From Candidatus Elulimicrobium sp. (GTDB lineage: Bacteria > Patescibacteriota > Minisyncoccia > Phycocordibacterales > UBA918), in contig DZBU01000009.1 of the NCBI GenBank assembly GCA_022730015.1, positions 1-38,392 on the forward strand: a stretch of DNA of 38,392 nucleotides. The letters are read 5' to 3'. Both the position numbers and the translations under genes were made by a program. Positions within the stretch are counted from its first letter, which is position 1; the number at the start of each line of letters is the position of its first letter. This document shows positions 7,924-29,330 of this stretch, in pieces. The notes under the pieces are model-generated. The model ran no database searches, was not told the origin of the DNA, and saw only the letters and a list, made by a program, of their open reading frames with translations.

Positions 7924-8337
7924 TCAGCCAATCACCACATTTGGAATGTACTTTGCAGTTGCGTATTTTTCAAGTGGAACTACCCTTATTGCAATCACAT
8001 CAATTTCCCAACCTCCACTGTATCCATGTTCAACAATCCAACTTTCGATAGCACGATTTAATCTACTGATCTTTGTTTTGTGCACATTTTCCTCAGGTCT
8101 CCATGTTCCACATGAAATCGCGTTATCTAGATCCTTCCTTGTTTCATATGAAACTGTTTTTACTTCAATAAATCTAATTACTCCAGTTTCACGTGCAACG
8201 ATATCTATTTCACCCCACTTTCTTAAGTAATTAGTATCAAGTATTTCAAAACCATGCCGCCTTAAGTATGCAGCAGCAATTATTTCACCATATGCGCCGA
8301 TTTGATTTCTTCTCCCTTTCTTCTCTATTTGTTTCAT
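7924..8337 (-). CDS. yraN: YraN/UPF0102 family nuclease-like protein, 137 aa
   Basis: The protein shows the family pattern GAYGEIIAAAYLRRHGFEIL, then WGEIDIVA and FIEVKTV, which form the restriction-endonuclease-like core (E, D, ExK). It is a little longer than the usual 115-125 residues. The ATG at 8337 is used because GxxGE follows at the normal distance. The coding sequence contains at least four parS-like palindromes and more surround it, so its nucleotide sequence seems to carry a second, DNA-binding function. It ends in TGA. YraN proteins are probable DNA-repair nucleases, but their role is poorly known. Confidence 0.88.
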   Translation of the reverse strand: MKQIEKKGRRNQIGAYGEIIAAAYLRRHGFEILDTNYLRKWGEIDIVARETGVIRFIEVKTVSYETRKDLDNAISCGTWRPEENVHKTKISRLNRAIESWIVEHGYSGGWEIDVIAIRVVPLEKYATAKYIPNVVIG

Positions 8338-8359
8338 ATGAAACGTTTCACGTGAAACA
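8330..8359. promoter_or_regulatory. Overlapping pair of parS-like palindromes at the yraN start
   Basis: TGTTTCATATGAAACG (8330-8345) and CGTTTCACGTGAAACA (8344-8359) overlap by two bases. The yraN ATG (8337) is part of the first palindrome. ParB binding here would cover the start of yraN. Confidence 0.75.
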
Positions 8360-8417
8360 TATTAATTTTATAAAGCATTTGCCTCTCAGCATATGGCCTT
8401 AAGTATAGCAATATCTT

Positions 8418-8457
8418 TAAAGGACACAAATACTTTATACCTGTTGATTGTCCTTTA
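8418..8457. repeat. Inverted element TAAAGGACA ... CTGTTGAT-TGTCCTTTA (copy 1)
   Basis: Arms TAAAGGACA (8418-8426) and TGTCCTTTA (8449-8457) are separated by 22 nt ending in CTGTTGAT. A second copy with the same arms and the same CTGTTGAT lies at 11524-11566. It runs into DnaA-box-like TTATCCACC. Confidence 0.6.
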
Positions 8458-8483
8458 TCCACCTATTCACCTGTTTATCCACA
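8455..8483. promoter_or_regulatory. DnaA-box-like pair (TTATCCACC and TTATCCACA)
   Basis: A perfect TTATCCACA (8475-8483) and a one-mismatch TTATCCACC (8455-8463) have the same orientation. Together with the parS cluster and the switch of gene orientation, they suggest an origin of replication nearby. Confidence 0.55.
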
Positions 8484-8495
8484 GTTTTTAGATAC

Positions 8496-9483: not shown

Positions 9484-9555
9484 GCGCCTATGGTGAAATG
9501 GATATCACAACTGACTTCGGATCAGTCGTTCTGGGTTCGAGTCCTGGTAGGCGCA
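9484..9555 (+). tRNA. tRNA-Arg (UCG)
   Basis: Acceptor GCGCCTA (9484-9490) pairs with TAGGCGC (9548-9554). The anticodon stem ACTGA/TCAGT encloses CTTCGGA with anticodon TCG (9517-9519). The T loop TTCGAGT is present and the discriminator is A. CCA is not encoded. The cca gene follows 29 nt later. Confidence 0.93.
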
Positions 9556-9569
9556 CAATAAATTTCTGG

Positions 9570-9575
9570 TACAAT
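9570..9575 (+). promoter_or_regulatory. Extended -10 (TGG-TACAAT) for cca
   Basis: There is a 9-nt gap to ATG 9585. It sets the start downstream of the longer open frame, which otherwise runs back through tRNA-Arg. Confidence 0.65.
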
Positions 9576-9584
9576 TCACCAGAT

Positions 9585-11057
9585 ATGTCCATTCGTCAGA
9601 TAGACATTCCAATTGAAGTGAGGCAAGTAGCAAATACCTTAGAGAATAAGGGTTTTGAAGCATATATTGTCGGTGGCTGTACTCGTGATCTACTACTAGG
9701 AAAAACCCCAAAAGACTGGGACCTAACAACAAACGCTGAACCAGCGCAAATTCAGGCACTTTTCCCTGAACACTATGCCAACAACGACTACGGCACGATT
9801 GGTATAAAAACAGAATCAGATGACCTAACTCTCAAGATTATCGAGGTTACGCCATACCGCTCGGAAGGTACATACAGCGATGCCAGACGTCCTGACACCG
9901 TCACCTTTGGTGTTTCGCTGGCAGAAGACCTGAAACGGCGTGATTTTACCGTCAATGCTCTAGCTTTTCGTATTTCTACCGGTGAACTCATTGATCTTTT
10001 TGGTGGGGAAGAGGACCTTGCAGCCAAGCGACTGAAGGCTGTTGGAAACTCTGAGGAGCGATTTGCCGAGGATGCACTTCGTATGATGCGAGCTGTCCGC
10101 CTGGCCGCCGAACTTGATTTTGTAATAGAAGGCGAGACCATGGCTGCTATTGTTAAAAATAGTAAGCAATTAAGTCGCATTTCCATCGAACGGGTGGCTA
10201 GCGAGTTTTTGCGTACACTCAATTCTCCTACCCCCATGCAAGGTATTATTTTCATGGAAAAGCTGGGTTTGTTGGATCATTTTTTACCAGAATTACGGCT
10301 TGGTATCGGCGTAGAACAAGGAGGAGCACATGCTTACGATGTCTACGAACACCTTTTGCGCACTATGCAGGCTGCTGCTGACAAGAATTTTTCTCTGAAA
10401 CTCCGTTTAGCGGCACTTTTTCATGACATCGCCAAGCCACAAACGCGTAGAGAGGGAGGTAAAAATAAGCAATATACCTTCTTTGGACATGAAGTAGTAG
10501 GGGCACGAATGACCAAAGAAATACTAGAGCGCTTAAAACTTCCTCGTGAAATGATCGACGAGGTGGTGAATTTGGTTCGCTGGCATATGTTTTTTGCTGA
10601 TCCTGAAGAGGTTACCTTAGCAGCAGTTAGACGAACTATTACTCGGATCGGTGAAGATCACATTGAAGAACTCCTCAATCTCCGTGTTTGTGACCGTATC
10701 GGCATGGGGAGACCAAAGGAACAGCCGTTTCGTTTTCGCAAATATAAGGCTTTGGTTGACCAAGCCCTCCGCGACCCTATTTCCGTAAAAATGCTCAAGA
10801 TTGATGGTACTCGCATCATGGAATTGACCGGGGAAAAACCAGGAAGAATGCTTGGCTATGTATTGCACGCACTGCTTGAAGAAGCACTAGAAGACGCTAA
10901 CAAGAACACAGCAGAGTACATGGAAAGACGGGCACTTGAGCTCATGCAGCTACCCGAAGAGAAACTGATCATACTTGCTGAAGCAGGAAAACAAAAACAG
11001 GCTTCAGAAGAAGCTGCTGCCTTAAAAGACATTGCTCGAGAGCACCACGTAGGATAA
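9585..11057 (+). CDS. cca: CCA tRNA nucleotidyltransferase with HD domain, 490 aa
   Basis: The class II nucleotidyltransferase head has GFEAYIVGGCTRDLLLG (GG at 30-31, RD at 34-35) and the metal-binding D44 and D46 in KDWDL. The RRDFTVNALAF and EDALRMMRAVR motifs for nucleotide and tRNA binding follow. A C-terminal HD domain carries H280-D281 in LAALFHDIAK and a further His in VRWHMF. The protein adds or repairs the 3' CCA of tRNAs; this is needed here because tRNA-Pro, -Gly and -Arg do not encode CCA. The ATG at 9585 is chosen by the -10 box at 9570 and by homology of the N-terminus. Confidence 0.93.
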   Translation: MSIRQIDIPIEVRQVANTLENKGFEAYIVGGCTRDLLLGKTPKDWDLTTNAEPAQIQALFPEHYANNDYGTIGIKTESDDLTLKIIEVTPYRSEGTYSDARRPDTVTFGVSLAEDLKRRDFTVNALAFRISTGELIDLFGGEEDLAAKRLKAVGNSEERFAEDALRMMRAVRLAAELDFVIEGETMAAIVKNSKQLSRISIERVASEFLRTLNSPTPMQGIIFMEKLGLLDHFLPELRLGIGVEQGGAHAYDVYEHLLRTMQAAADKNFSLKLRLAALFHDIAKPQTRREGGKNKQYTFFGHEVVGARMTKEILERLKLPREMIDEVVNLVRWHMFFADPEEVTLAAVRRTITRIGEDHIEELLNLRVCDRIGMGRPKEQPFRFRKYKALVDQALRDPISVKMLKIDGTRIMELTGEKPGRMLGYVLHALLEEALEDANKNTAEYMERRALELMQLPEEKLIILAEAGKQKQASEEAAALKDIAREHHVG

Positions 11058-11070
11058 AAGACAAATTGTA

Positions 11071-11106
11071 AAAAAACGGCTCAATTGAGCCCTTTGGTTT
11101 TTCACC
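11071..11106. terminator. Terminator hairpin after cca
   Basis: GGCTCAATTGAGCC (11078-11091) is a perfect palindrome flanked by an A tract on the left and GGTTTTT on the right. It lies 20 nt after the cca stop. Confidence 0.6.
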
Positions 11107-11111
11107 ATGCA

Positions 11112-11493
11112 ATAAAAAGACCTGAAGGAATCGGGAGCCAATCTGTGATGGTGATTAGCTGCCGGTGCCTTCAGGTCTTATAGTAAACGAGCTTGCTATT
11201 GGAGGATTATGGTAATCCAAGTGGGCGCTTACTAATGAGGCTAACCCGATCCGAAGCTCTACGTTGTTGCGAGAGATGCACGTTTGGTGACTTTGCGCTT
11301 GTAGAGTTGCAATGTCTGTACTCTCTCTAATAGGGTGGGATGTTATGAACGTTTTGAGTAAGAGTCTTTCGACTCTTGGAGGTAATACTCAATTGTGTTT
11401 TGGAAGATCTCTTTAAGGGGTACCTCGAGGGAGTTGGTTGGAAGTGTTTCCACTCAACTCTCTCGAGATGCCTGCTCGCCCTTTCTGGGCCTA
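11112..11493 (-). ncRNA. Candidate structured non-coding RNA, about 380 nt, minus strand
   Basis: The stretch has no convincing ORF. On the minus strand a promoter TTTACA (11522-11527), 17 nt, TACTAT (11499-11504) points into it, and a terminator hairpin with TTTTT ends it (12-bp stem 11117-11128 / 11168-11179). Between them lie several good hairpins: 11478-11490, 11424-11467 (13-bp stem with an inner AGTG-TTTC-CACT), 11360-11377 (AAGAGTC-TTTC-GACTCTT), 11204-11218, and long-range GAGCTT (11189-11194) / AAGCTC (11254-11259). I looked for and did not find the conserved motifs of tmRNA, SRP RNA, 6S RNA or RNase P RNA. It lies between the convergent genes cca and xthA. Confidence 0.5.
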
Positions 11494-11498
11494 CCAAT

Positions 11499-11527
11499 AT
11501 AGTATTCTTACTAAAGGACAGTGTAAA
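11499..11527 (-). promoter_or_regulatory. Promoter TTTACA-N17-TACTAT for the candidate ncRNA
   Basis: The minus-strand -35 (11522-11527) overlaps the TAAAGGACA repeats, so a factor binding these repeats could control this promoter. Confidence 0.55.
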
Positions 11528-11566
11528 GGACAACACTGTGCATAACTGTTGATAATGTGTCCTTTA
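11512..11566. repeat. TAAAGGACA element, copy 2, with an extra half-site
   Basis: Direct TAAAGGACA at 11512-11520 and 11524-11532, and inverted TGTCCTTTA at 11558-11566, with CTGTTGAT at 11546-11553. A DnaA-box-like TGTGCATAA is at 11537-11545. The order matches the copy at 8418-8457. The remaining 11567-11763 holds no gene that I can see. Confidence 0.6.
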
Positions 11567-11763: not shown

Positions 11764-12564
11764 TTATAAATCAACACTTAATTCAACAGAGACAGGGCAG
11801 TGGTCAGAGCCCATTACATTTGGATGGATGCGAGCATTCTTGATGAGGGGAATGAGATCCTTTGATGTCATAACATAATCAATGCGCCAACCGACGTTCC
11901 TTTCACGCGCGCCACCGAAGTGCGACCACCAGGTGTAAAGCCCAGATTCATTCGGATGGAAGTGTCGCAGGGTGTCAACGAAACCTTTCGCAAGCATAGC
12001 GTCGATGCCAGCGCGCTCTTCGTCGGTGAAACCTTTCTTGCCACGATTTTCCTTCGGTCGAGCAAGGTCGATTTCTTGGTGAGCAACATTAAAATCACCA
12101 CAAAAGATAACTGGCTTTTCTTGCTGCAAACGATCCATGTACTCAAGAAAGGCTGGGTCCCACTGCTGGCGCATCGGGATTCGTGAAAGGTCATCTTTGG
12201 CATTTGGCGTGTAGACCGTACTAACATAGAAAGGTTCAAATTCCGCTACCATGGCCCTACCTTCTTTAGTAGTATCACCGTAGCTGTCGGCGAGCTGATA
12301 TTTGGCAGCAATATCTTCCGGAAGACCGTTGATCACCTCGATTGGGGAGTGTCTGGTGAAGATGGCCGTGCCAGAATAGCCTTTTTTCTCCGCTGAGCAC
12401 CAATATTCATCATATTCTGGGAAATCAAGATCAATCTGGTCGTGATTTGCCTTGGTTTCTTGAATACAGAGGATATCTGGCTGATGTTCTGTTAAGAAGG
12501 GTTCTAATAGGCCCTTTTTGTGAACCGCCCGGATGCCGTTCATGTTCCATGAGTAGATCTTCAT
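11764..12564 (-). CDS. xthA: Exodeoxyribonuclease III / AP endonuclease, 266 aa
   Basis: The endonuclease/exonuclease/phosphatase fold is clear: SWNMNGIRA (N7), ILCIQETK (E36 metal ligand), GDFNVAH (catalytic Asp and Asn), TWWSHF and WRIDYV, and GSDHCPV with the final Asp-His pair. The length equals that of bacterial ExoIII. It cuts abasic sites in base excision repair and degrades 3' ends. It is a single-gene unit; a weak -10 (TAGACT, 12571-12576) lies 6 nt before the ATG. It is one of few minus-strand genes in the mostly plus-strand block to the right. Confidence 0.95.
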   Translation of the reverse strand: MKIYSWNMNGIRAVHKKGLLEPFLTEHQPDILCIQETKANHDQIDLDFPEYDEYWCSAEKKGYSGTAIFTRHSPIEVINGLPEDIAAKYQLADSYGDTTKEGRAMVAEFEPFYVSTVYTPNAKDDLSRIPMRQQWDPAFLEYMDRLQQEKPVIFCGDFNVAHQEIDLARPKENRGKKGFTDEERAGIDAMLAKGFVDTLRHFHPNESGLYTWWSHFGGARERNVGWRIDYVMTSKDLIPLIKNARIHPNVMGSDHCPVSVELSVDL

Positions 12565-26474: not shown

Positions 26475-27449
26475 CTACACCACCTTCACAAACCCCCGAT
26501 GGGGCGACCCGCGTTTCCACATCACACTCTCGAGATAGTAGTGAATAAAACCAAACGTCATTACGAACGTAAAAAGTAGCTCGGTGTTTGAAATAGTTTC
26601 ACGCAGAATTGCTCCCAGTAATATCGCGATAAGTGGAACGATCACGATGAGCGAAAGCGGCAACAGTGGAATGGCCGTGTACAAAAAATTTCTCACTTGA
26701 TCTTTGTTTCGATTCATCTCATGTGTGATGTAGAACAAAAAAGCAGTCACGTCGTGGATAAATCGTGCGACAAAGATAGCAAGGAAGAAGTACCCAAACC
26801 AGAGCATGGTGTAACTAGTAATCACCATAAGCAAAGTGAGCGCAATGTACGAAATTCCCCAACGTGAGCTAGTCGTGCGGGCAAGGAAACCGCCACTAAT
26901 CAAAGCAGTGACCAGTGTGGCCAAAATGAAAAAGACCAAGTACGAAGCGTCGAGATCTTCAACAAATCTTGGAAGCATGATCGCAACATACATGACCGCG
27001 GTACTAAGTACCAAACCCCAAGTCCACCGTTCATGCCATTTATTTTTCGGCACACCGAACATGAGGGCGATCCCTGTTTGTTGTCGCATGACGTGATACA
27101 TCGTAGCAGCCAAATATACTGCGACTGCAGTCATGAAGTCGGTCCACAGTAAAACGAAGAAACCAACCAACATGAGCGGGAGACCAATCGTGAGATGATT
27201 CCGATAATGTGTAACATACTCTTTGTCCAAAAACCCAATAAAGCTTGCAAAGATATGTGGCATTTCAAAGATCAGTAAATATAGCGGAAGAAAAAGTGAA
27301 GCTGGCCCTAGGTAGGGGAGAAGTCCGCGGTCATTGACCATCATGTCCCAAGACCACACCAGAAGCACAAGTGGCACAATGAGAAAAAGACCGAGCATCC
27401 ATGAGCGGTGGATAGAGTAAAACGACTGCTCGAATTTAATACCATTCAT
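26475..27449 (-). CDS. Polytopic membrane protein, paralogue B, 324 aa
   Basis: About nine or ten membrane helices are predicted. Conserved features shared with the upstream paralogue are a polar FEMPHIFASF segment, a histidine followed by MRQQTGIAL, RFIHDVTAFLFYITHEMNRNK, HYYLESVMWKRGSPHR and the final FVKVV. The repeated His, Arg and acidic residues at membrane borders look catalytic or metal-binding, but I do not recognise the family. It starts 2 nt after the paralogue's stop and is the same length (324 aa). Its last 63 nt are nearly identical to those of the paralogue (60 of 63), while the remainder differs strongly. Confidence 0.82.
   Translation of the reverse strand: MNGIKFEQSFYSIHRSWMLGLFLIVPLVLLVWSWDMMVNDRGLLPYLGPASLFLPLYLLIFEMPHIFASFIGFLDKEYVTHYRNHLTIGLPLMLVGFFVLLWTDFMTAVAVYLAATMYHVMRQQTGIALMFGVPKNKWHERWTWGLVLSTAVMYVAIMLPRFVEDLDASYLVFFILATLVTALISGGFLARTTSSRWGISYIALTLLMVITSYTMLWFGYFFLAIFVARFIHDVTAFLFYITHEMNRNKDQVRNFLYTAIPLLPLSLIVIVPLIAILLGAILRETISNTELLFTFVMTFGFIHYYLESVMWKRGSPHRGFVKVV
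26476..26538. repeat. Direct repeat at the 3' end of paralogue B
   Basis: 63 nt match 27453-27515 with three differences, all C/T changes. They encode the common C-terminus SVMWKRGSPHR-FVKVV. Confidence 0.85.
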
Positions 27450-27451
27450 AC

Positions 27452-28426
27452 TTACACCACCTTCACAAACTCCCGATGGGGCGACCCGCGCTTCCACATT
27501 ACACTCTCGAGATAGAAATGCGACATACAGATGAGGATGATGATACTAAACCCGAATGTCAGTTTTTCTGTCGAGGCGCGTATCAGGTACGCTATCAGGA
27601 TACCGAGGACTGGGGTGAGTAGCATGACACGGATCGGCACTTTCGAGATAAGCGCATAGAGATAATTCAGAGATCCTCCCTTTGCTCGATTGTAGTCATG
27701 TGTCATGTAGAACGAGAAAGCAGTGATGTCATGAATGGAACGGAACGCCAGGATGGATAGGAAAATGTACCCAGTCAAAATGAAGAAGTAACTGAATACG
27801 AACAGCATTGAAACTAAAAAAATGTATAGGCGCACATGGGCCGGTGACACCCACATTTCTGCAATCATGATGAGAAGGATGAGGATCTCGCCAATGAGTA
27901 AGGCTGGGGAAATATAGGGAACAATCGCATCCAGATACGCTGAGGGATGGACGATGTACACGTATGCAACACTTCCCACAAAGAATGGCACGAGTGTCCA
28001 CAGTCGATGCAAGATGCCGGGCTTCGCACCCAAGATAAGTCCGATACCAACCTGCTGTCGTACCCCGTGCCATATGTCATTAAGCAAGAAAAAAACAAGA
28101 CCCCAAACGAAGTTGTAGTACAGCAGCAACGCCGTGCCGGTAAGCAGTAAGGGGAGATACACAAAAAGATGTTTCTTGTAGTACCGCACGTACTGACGAT
28201 CGAAGAAGCTAAAGAAACTCGCAATGATGTGCGGCAAAAGAAATAGAATTATGTAGAAGGGACTGAAGAGTGCTTCCACCCCAAGGTGCGGCAAGAAACG
28301 TGAATCAAGAAGGAACATATCTACCAGAACAATTGTCAGCAAGACCGGCAACACGAGGTATGCGTACAAAAGAACTTTTCGGGAGATCGCCAGTAATTCA
28401 CTTGGAGCTGCAATTTTATTTTCCAT
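27452..28426 (-). CDS. Polytopic membrane protein, paralogue A, 324 aa
   Basis: It is the same kind of protein as the gene behind it: LLPHIIASFFSFFDRQYV, NDIWHGVRQQVGIGL, RSIHDITAFSFYMTHDYNRAK and HFYLESVMWKRGSPHREFVKVV, within about ten membrane helices. The start ATG 28426 overlaps the xerC/D stop by 11 nt, so it is translated from the same mRNA. The longer open frame upstream lies inside xerC/D and is rejected. Possible roles include an integral membrane enzyme acting on lipids or isoprenoids; this is a guess from the His-rich membrane-border motifs. Confidence 0.83.
   Translation of the reverse strand: MENKIAAPSELLAISRKVLLYAYLVLPVLLTIVLVDMFLLDSRFLPHLGVEALFSPFYIILFLLPHIIASFFSFFDRQYVRYYKKHLFVYLPLLLTGTALLLYYNFVWGLVFFLLNDIWHGVRQQVGIGLILGAKPGILHRLWTLVPFFVGSVAYVYIVHPSAYLDAIVPYISPALLIGEILILLIMIAEMWVSPAHVRLYIFLVSMLFVFSYFFILTGYIFLSILAFRSIHDITAFSFYMTHDYNRAKGGSLNYLYALISKVPIRVMLLTPVLGILIAYLIRASTEKLTFGFSIIILICMSHFYLESVMWKRGSPHREFVKVV
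27453..27515. repeat. Direct repeat at the 3' end of paralogue A
   Basis: Partner of 26476-26538 with 60 of 63 identical bases. The upstream parts of the two genes are not similar at this level. Confidence 0.85.
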
Positions 28427-29330
28427 GATATTTTTTATGAACCGCTCGTAAATGCTTATCGGTGACATGAGTATACACCTGAGTCGTACCAATGTTGGCG
28501 TGACCGAGAAGCGCCTGCACACTGCGAAGATCTGCTCCGTTTGAAAGTAGATCAGTTGCAAAACTGTGACGAATAACATGTGGGGTTACTTTGCGAGTAA
28601 TGCCTGCCTGTATCGCATACCGTTTGATGAGTCGTTGTACAGCACGCGGTGCAAGTCGTAGATCACCGCCATCATTCACCTTGCGCCCATACCGAACAAA
28701 CATTGCATCATCCATGTCCTTCCGGTGCTTTAAGTAATCCTGCAAAGTACTACGAGCAGAATCTGAGAGAAAGACTACTCGCACCTTATCACCCTTTCCC
28801 CGAACCGAAAATTCATCGCGGGTGAGGTCGACGTCATCAATAGAAAGTCCGCATAATTCAGAGATGCGAAGACCAGTAGAGAAGAGCAGTTCGAGAATCG
28901 CCTTGTCACGTTTACCTTCAAGTGTCTTTTGGTCAGGTGCGTTCATCAGTCGCTTCAGTTCCGCTGCTGAGATAAGGTCAATCGACCGCTCAGGAACTTT
29001 TGCTAATTCAATGCGCTCGGGCGAAAGTGCTTCGATGCCGCGCTTTCGTAAAAACTTGAGAAACGCACGCAACGCTATGAGGTAATAGTTCTGTGTACGA
29101 CGTTTCATGGGTTCCATTCGTCCGCCCATTTTCGTACCTGGTTGCCGATTGAGATGGATGCGAAACTCTCGCACTTGTTCCTCAGTGAGGTCACCAACCT
29201 TTTTCACCTTCGCAAACGCAAAAAAGCGCTCCAGGTATCGATCATAATTCTCAACTGTCTTAACACTCCTACCCCGCTCGATCTCGAGGTATTCAAGAAA
29301 TTGACGTTTCAGCTCCGCAAGACTGTTCAT
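28416..29330 (-). CDS. XerC/XerD tyrosine recombinase, 304 aa
   Basis: The N-terminal SAM-like domain (about 1-100) has FLEYLEIERGRSVKTVENY. The catalytic domain carries R155 (STGLRISELCG), K179 (VRGKGDKVR), H251 and R254 (HVIRHSF), H277 (LLGHANIGTTQ) and Y286 (VYTHV), so it is complete. Its length equals that of chromosomal Xer recombinases that resolve dimers at dif; a mobile-element integrase is less likely because no attachment sites or phage genes are near. The start at 29330 is set by TATACT 7 nt upstream. It heads a three-gene unit with the two membrane paralogues. Confidence 0.93.
   Translation of the reverse strand: MNSLAELKRQFLEYLEIERGRSVKTVENYDRYLERFFAFAKVKKVGDLTEEQVREFRIHLNRQPGTKMGGRMEPMKRRTQNYYLIALRAFLKFLRKRGIEALSPERIELAKVPERSIDLISAAELKRLMNAPDQKTLEGKRDKAILELLFSTGLRISELCGLSIDDVDLTRDEFSVRGKGDKVRVVFLSDSARSTLQDYLKHRKDMDDAMFVRYGRKVNDGGDLRLAPRAVQRLIKRYAIQAGITRKVTPHVIRHSFATDLLSNGADLRSVQALLGHANIGTTQVYTHVTDKHLRAVHKKYHGK

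Follow-up and report, generated by a model that had tools for sequence, protein, structure and literature searches.

The window, the whole 38,392-nucleotide stretch of DNA analysed here, contains between cca (9498-11057; PolyA_pol/HD in Pfam) and xthA (11764-12564; Exo_endo_phos in Pfam) a minus-strand gene which, judged from its sequence and its homologues, is that of a real structured noncoding RNA absent from Rfam. This RNA, designated RNA1, has the following features:

About 11112-11494, minus strand: RNA1 gene, ~380 nt, whose homologues share the conserved start GGCCCAGARAGGGC and the terminator
11527-11499, minus strand: sigma-70-like promoter TTTACA-17-TACTAT
11512-11520 (minus strand), 11524-11532 (minus strand) and 11558-11566 (plus strand): AAAGGACA (TGTCCTTTA) elements overlapping or flanking the promoter, in a conserved layout
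11537-11555, minus strand: two tandem DnaA-box-like 9-mers lying upstream of the promoter (TTATCAACA and TTATGCACA), recognised from the sequence and the homologues
11478-11490, minus strand: P1 (helix 1), the 5'-terminal hairpin GCCC(AGAAA)GGGC
11415-11477, minus strand: P2 (helices 2 and 3), a long hairpin closed by GAG/CUU and followed by AAAGAG
11354-11392, minus strand: P3, hairpin UUGAGUA/UACUCAA presenting the near-invariant UACCUCC
11378-11387, minus strand: pairing segment 5'-UAUUACCUCC-3', the complement of the RNA2 loop GGAGGUAAUA
11334-11353, minus strand: AACGUUCAUAACAUCCCACC, conserved in homologues and predicted to be single-stranded
About 11114-11179, minus strand: intrinsic terminator, a long hairpin with conserved internal loops and a TTTTT end

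The original prediction placed here a structured RNA of about 380 nt, transcribed from a promoter with 17-nt spacing, ending at a terminator with TTTTT and lying in a region without coding signs, and comparison with homologues upholds it in each of these respects. The promoter hexamers agree with the consensus at 9 of 12 positions, a match which by itself hardly exceeds chance (2 occurrences, with 1.3 expected from shuffled sequences) and which is convincing because the block is conserved in 39/39 homologues. From the -10 box the 5' end is inferred to lie ~6-9 nt downstream, and the 3' end is the T-run at 11118-11114. Homologues keep the terminator hairpin and the T-run with paired changes; a simple terminator scan does not report it, probably owing to the stem and loop limits of the scan. 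The minus strand between 11500 and 11112 folds with -121.6 kcal/mol (z = -7.4, equalled by 0 shuffles). The plus strand of the locus also folds well (z = -6.45), as is expected for hairpin-rich DNA, and the assignment of the strand therefore rests on the promoter, the terminator and the homologues. A plus-strand or protein-coding gene was considered and rejected, as the open reading frames inside the locus, none longer than 69 aa, lack conservation and the homologues carry indels of any length. Between cca and RNA1, the palindrome GGCTCAATTGAGCC with T-runs on both strands (11078-11091) is a possible bidirectional terminator. Elsewhere in the window, two adjacent membrane-protein genes (26475-28579) are apparently paralogous, their products sharing the C-terminal sequence LESVMWKRGSPHR.FVKVV.

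RNA1 folds in the order P1, P2, P3, a variable 3' domain and the terminator hairpin, and covariance analysis of the homologues reveals compensatory changes that strongly back the 5' helices. Across 39 sequences 93% of cells in these helices are paired, and 142 cells are changed on both sides compared with 33.5 in shuffles. The alignment was guided by the model structure and is biased in its favour, but the same pairs are found in a MAFFT-based fold. Sliding the helix partner by 1-3 bases reduces pairing to 52% or less. Helix 1 is nearly invariant with 100% of cells paired, and in P2 changes on both sides are seen for 14 of the 16 pairs, the closing GAG/CUU being swapped for GCG/CGU, AGG/CCU or GGG/CCU; in some homologues P2 is reduced to a few base pairs. 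P3 retains its stem although the stem sequences are unrelated (UUGAGU/ACUCAA, ACUAGUU/AACUAGU, GCGAUU/AAUCGC, GUUAG/CUAAC), and the stem scores 5.70, compared with 4.82 (maximum 5.21) when 3' sides are swapped. The near-invariant UACCUCC is placed in the P3 loop or in an internal loop, with the exception of G016, which has UUCUCC.

Searches against Rfam 15 return 0 families at gathering score for RNA1, and relaxing the threshold to E = 10 in the window adds chance-level miRNA and snoRNA matches and one RAGATH-8 match (12 bits compared with the required 86.7). The absence of a strong match to tmRNA, SRP RNA, 6S RNA or RNase P RNA, as first reported from inspection, is hence confirmed with Rfam models at gathering and relaxed thresholds. 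Neither 6S RNA (RF00013) nor SRP RNA (RF00169 and relatives) is matched by RNA1 in the window (E up to 10) or by its homologues (E up to 1); the fold consists of multiple hairpins rather than the single long hairpin with central bubble of the 6S type, and the SRP helix-8 motif is not seen in it. RNase P RNA (RF00010) and tmRNA (RF00023) are encoded elsewhere in the same genome, at G000:C9:20662-21072 and G000:C11:50-445, and RNA1 matches neither model. The suggestion that RNA1 might be a highly diverged known RNA is thus unlikely to hold for RNase P RNA and tmRNA, and finds no support for 6S or SRP RNA. The 6S (RF00013) and small SRP RNA (RF00169) models match nothing in 48 genomes of the family, and the true SRP RNA of the family may be very diverged. 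A search of a limited literature collection found nothing on RNA1.

BLASTN matches RNA1 in 25/49 genomes of the GTDB family (Paceibacterota/Kaiserbacteria). A covariance model, R1, built from the first ~160 nt of RNA1 recovers more copies, giving 39/49 family genomes with an intact RNA1 of about 320 to 540 nt and one further genome, G032, with the 3' end only, at a contig edge. RNA1 was not found in G028, G043, G018 and G045, of which nearby stretches were searched. In 397 genomes of the order, R1 matched 11, all within the family, under strict filters that may miss distant copies, and RNA1 was not found in the about 380 sampled genomes that belong to other families of the order. The named records holding homologues are likewise Paceibacterota/Kaiserbacteria, and no phage relatives were found. 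Matches to GGCCCAG...GGGC in Phycisphaerae, Solirubrobacterales and Bacteroidetes (L036, L041, L053) have neither the promoter nor the downstream motifs and are regarded as chance. This distribution fits the CPR-specific RNA that had been envisaged as one possibility.

Beyond what the original prediction described, the RNA1 promoter is embedded in a group of elements that recur at a second site of the window, where a predicted, probable origin of replication lies:

8330-8490: probable oriC in the gap between yraN and tRNA-Gly, with parS-like GTTTCACGTGAAACA, TAAAGGACA at 8418-8426, TGTCCTTTA at 8449-8457 and DnaA box TTATCCACA at 8475-8483

Upstream of nearly all RNA1 copies the layout comprises TAAAGGACA, DnaA-box-like 9-mers, TGTCCTTTA and a second AAAGGACA element, direct or inverted, which abuts the -10 region. 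A DnaA-box-like site (at most 1 mismatch to TTATCCACA) occurs at 39/39 RNA1 promoters compared with 2.4% of background windows; counts of AAAGGACA at these promoters are partly given by construction, as possession of part of this motif was a criterion for accepting a copy. The whole 775-kb genome contains 11 copies of TGTCCTTTA, of which 3 are located at the RNA1 promoter and 2 at 8418-8457 of the window; the remaining copies are single or within a gene, and a pair at G000:C6 was rejected as a further site as it lies inside a umuC-like gene. Copies of AAAGGACA are also seen within the transcribed RNA1 of G001 (L098; in the terminator hairpin) and of G020 (L166). L098 2650-2932, near the RNA1 of G001, scores 36.7 bits against the cspA thermoregulator model, below the gathering score of 78 (E = 2e-6).

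RNA1 and the probable oriC, which adjoins yraN (UPF0102 in Pfam), thus have AAAGGACA and DnaA-box elements in common and are ~3 kb apart in the window. RNA1 is located 3-10 kb from the probable oriC and oriented towards it in 7/7 genomes checked, and in G014, G020, G019 and G034 the densest DnaA-box cluster of the examined stretch is at or near the corresponding spot; the stretch of G001 that was read has no such origin-like spot. A similar arrangement of parS-like, AAAGGACA and DnaA-box elements adjoins yraN in several relatives. The GC skew of G019 has its turn within a broad zone, 65-140 kb, in which the origin-like spot (at 93 kb), RNA1 (at 99 kb) and dnaA (at 131 kb) all lie. The oriC stays a prediction because this zone is broad and also contains dnaA, which has DnaA boxes of its own. 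The link between RNA1 and replication is suggestive, and RNA1 may help to locate the origin region in genomes of this lineage.

A candidate partner, RNA2, likewise absent from the original prediction, was discovered by seeking complements of the invariant RNA1 loop in two genomes, where it adjoins the gene for HU. In the genome to which the window belongs it is the following:

G000:C18, L103 291-391, minus strand: RNA2, ~100 nt, beside the HU gene

The RNA2 gene has a canonical -10 box; its product begins with the hairpin UAGCG(GAGGUAAUA)CGCUA, after which come another hairpin, CCCACCACA and the terminator. RNAalifold applied to the RNA2 model pairs GGAGGUA with UAUUUCC in place of H1, and a switch between H1 and this pairing is possible. 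RNA2 is recognised in 32/49 family genomes by HU synteny or covariance model, usually encoded beside the HU gene and often followed by tRNA-Gly(TCC), and has no match above gathering threshold in Rfam 15. The CCCACC motif within the conserved single-stranded segment of RNA1 is also present in RNA2. The two genes lie on separate contigs in the window's genome (G000:C25 for RNA1); in G019, G034 and other genomes they share a contig, at a distance of ~10-30 kb. Several genomes with RNA1, including G001, G013, G014, G016 and G020, yielded no RNA2; sites of predicted complementarity in G001 and the G013/G014/G016/G020 clade proved to be the reverse strand of RNA1 itself and chance sites. This would imply that the pair is not obligatory or that RNA2 has diverged in these genomes. 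The RNA2 pattern was also sought in 17 genomes of other families, where its two matches are chance-like and were rejected.

The RNA1 loop with UACCUCC has 10-nt complementarity to the RNA2 loop, and in G019 the RNA2 loop GGAGGUAAUA pairs with RNA1 at 10/10 positions. Complementarity was used to choose RNA2 in the first two genomes only, and the remaining genomes are a fair test of the pairing. The four variable loop bases beside a fixed hexamer pair fully in 23/27 genomes, the exceptions being a G-U pair in G038 and mismatches in G031, G048 and G046 (one mismatch in G046). In 26 genomes these bases form 100/104 Watson-Crick pairs (permutation mean 80.8) and pairing is complete in 23/26 (mean 9.6), a level reached by 0/100,000 permutations, which ignore phylogeny. 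Five different matching combinations of the two loops are found, and on a tree of HU and XthA ~4 coordinated, complementary changes are placed (UAAU/AUUA-UAUU/AAUA, GAUU/AAUC, AUAU/AUAU, AAAU/AUUU), compared with three one-sided changes at tips that each disrupt a pair and a fourth that preserves a wobble. Cognate duplexes are predicted at -18.2 kcal/mol and non-cognate duplexes at -15.9 kcal/mol. In G024 the covarying RNA2 base sits in a stem, and another constraint on this base is therefore possible. Base pairing of RNA1 with RNA2 is the simplest account of the loop coevolution and is well supported; with complementary, coevolving hairpin loops of the kind that define a kissing RNA pair, the contact is probably loop-loop.

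It is proposed, as the reading that we consider probable, that RNA1 is a regulatory RNA linked to replication, which acts in trans and joins RNA2 in a loop-loop complex. Sequence comparison backs the conserved noncoding RNA, its helices, the promoter motifs and the coevolution of the loops, from which we infer the loop-loop geometry, control by DnaA and a regulatory output. RNA1 would be transcribed from a promoter whose DnaA-box and AAAGGACA elements recur at the probable oriC, and because of this match its synthesis is probably tied to DnaA and the replication state. Its P3 loop UACCUCC would then form ~10 bp with the Shine-Dalgarno-like loop of RNA2 (GGAGGUAAUA, GGAGGUAUUA and variants). 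The likely consequence is mutual titration, in which RNA1 covers the SD-like loop of RNA2 or RNA2 covers the anti-SD-like loop of RNA1, and the replication-linked level of one RNA would thereby set the free amount of the other. A more far-reaching version, which is doubtful, envisages a chromosomal two-RNA replication switch in the CPR: DnaA and a predicted AAAGGACA-binding factor would set RNA1 transcription beside oriC, and the RNA1-RNA2 kissing balance would gate initiation or early cell-cycle genes. If true, such a switch would be the chromosomal counterpart of plasmid copy-number RNA pairs.

The prevalence of RNA1 in most family genomes and the strong conservation of its single-stranded segments would also suit a housekeeping ribonucleoprotein RNA. 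Such an RNA might be an SRP or 6S RNA that has diverged greatly, or a scaffold peculiar to the CPR, and RNA2 would be its second RNA subunit; the CCCACC motif common to both RNAs and the lack of matches to the 6S and small SRP RNA models in 48 genomes of the family point the same way. This is unlikely, as the relaxed searches of the window and the homologues give no SRP or 6S match, neither the 6S-type hairpin with central bubble nor the SRP helix-8 motif is visible, P2 is only a few base pairs long in some homologues and DnaA sites of origin type would be unusual at the promoter of such an RNA. We give equally little credence to a general anti-Shine-Dalgarno function, in which the UACCUCC loop represses many mRNAs as S. 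aureus RNAIII does and RNA2 is a decoy or sponge. The near-invariant, loop-displayed UACCUCC is what such a function would predict, and there are precedents in the masking of Shine-Dalgarno sequences by RNAIII (PMC2837412) and in the C-rich loop of CcnA (PMC8959179). However, the covariation with RNA2 is specific and extends to bases beyond the anti-SD hexamer, and by a crude count an SD-like sequence precedes the first ATG in 1/38 long open reading frames of the window.

The placement of RNA1, aimed at the probable oriC from 3-10 kb away in all seven genomes checked, raises a further explanation, in which RNA1 acts in cis at the origin, for example through transcription that aids opening or priming, like RNAII of ColE1, and RNA2 is the counter-RNA, given that an RNAI/RNAII pair controls ColE1-type replication (PMC9458437). 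The strong conserved terminator stops RNA1 before the origin, cca intervenes between the two in the window, their distance varies among genomes and the conserved structure points to a role for the RNA product, all of which make an action in cis highly improbable. To the sparse knowledge of RNA-based regulation in the Candidate Phyla Radiation, RNA1 and RNA2 add a base-pairing partnership that is visible by coevolution, and the promoter elements common to RNA1 and the probable oriC suggest a testable link between RNA and replication in bacteria with few known regulators.

Among known systems the nearest in logic is CcnA of Caulobacter crescentus, which the available part of its description presents as a 182-nt, origin-encoded, presumably CtrA-activated noncoding RNA whose targets are the ctrA and gcrA 5' UTRs (PMC8959179). 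CcnA has DnaA boxes at its gene and a C-rich loop that pairs with G-rich sequence in its partner; RNA1, also noncoding, lies near a predicted origin, has DnaA-box-like sites at its promoter and would pair through a C-rich loop with the G-rich loop of RNA2. For CcnA, which belongs to an unrelated lineage, the same part of that source mentions no partner that is itself a small RNA and whose hairpin loop covaries (PMC8959179). The likeness would be one of working and not of membership. The RNAI and RNAII of ColE1 recognise each other by loop-loop contacts. This pair, which controls the replication of ColE1-type plasmids, resembles RNA1 and RNA2 in the proposed recognition between two RNAs and its link to replication (PMC9458437). 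RNAI and RNAII are sense and antisense transcripts from opposite strands of one locus, whereas the genes of RNA1 and RNA2 occupy different chromosomal loci and the two RNAs have ~10 nt of complementarity only. RNAIII of S. aureus is about 514 nt long and encodes a peptide. Like RNA1 it is a large multi-hairpin RNA, and it uses loop-loop pairing, as proposed for RNA1, and masks Shine-Dalgarno sequence (PMC2837412). RNAIII is a quorum-sensing effector, however, and Rfam scans indicate no homology to RNA1. With 6S, SRP, tmRNA and RNase P RNAs, RNA1 has in common that it is a stable structured bacterial RNA in the range of 100-400 nt, but it does not match their models. RNA1 and RNA2 represent two undescribed RNA families that would work through a kissing-pair mechanism which itself belongs to a known class.
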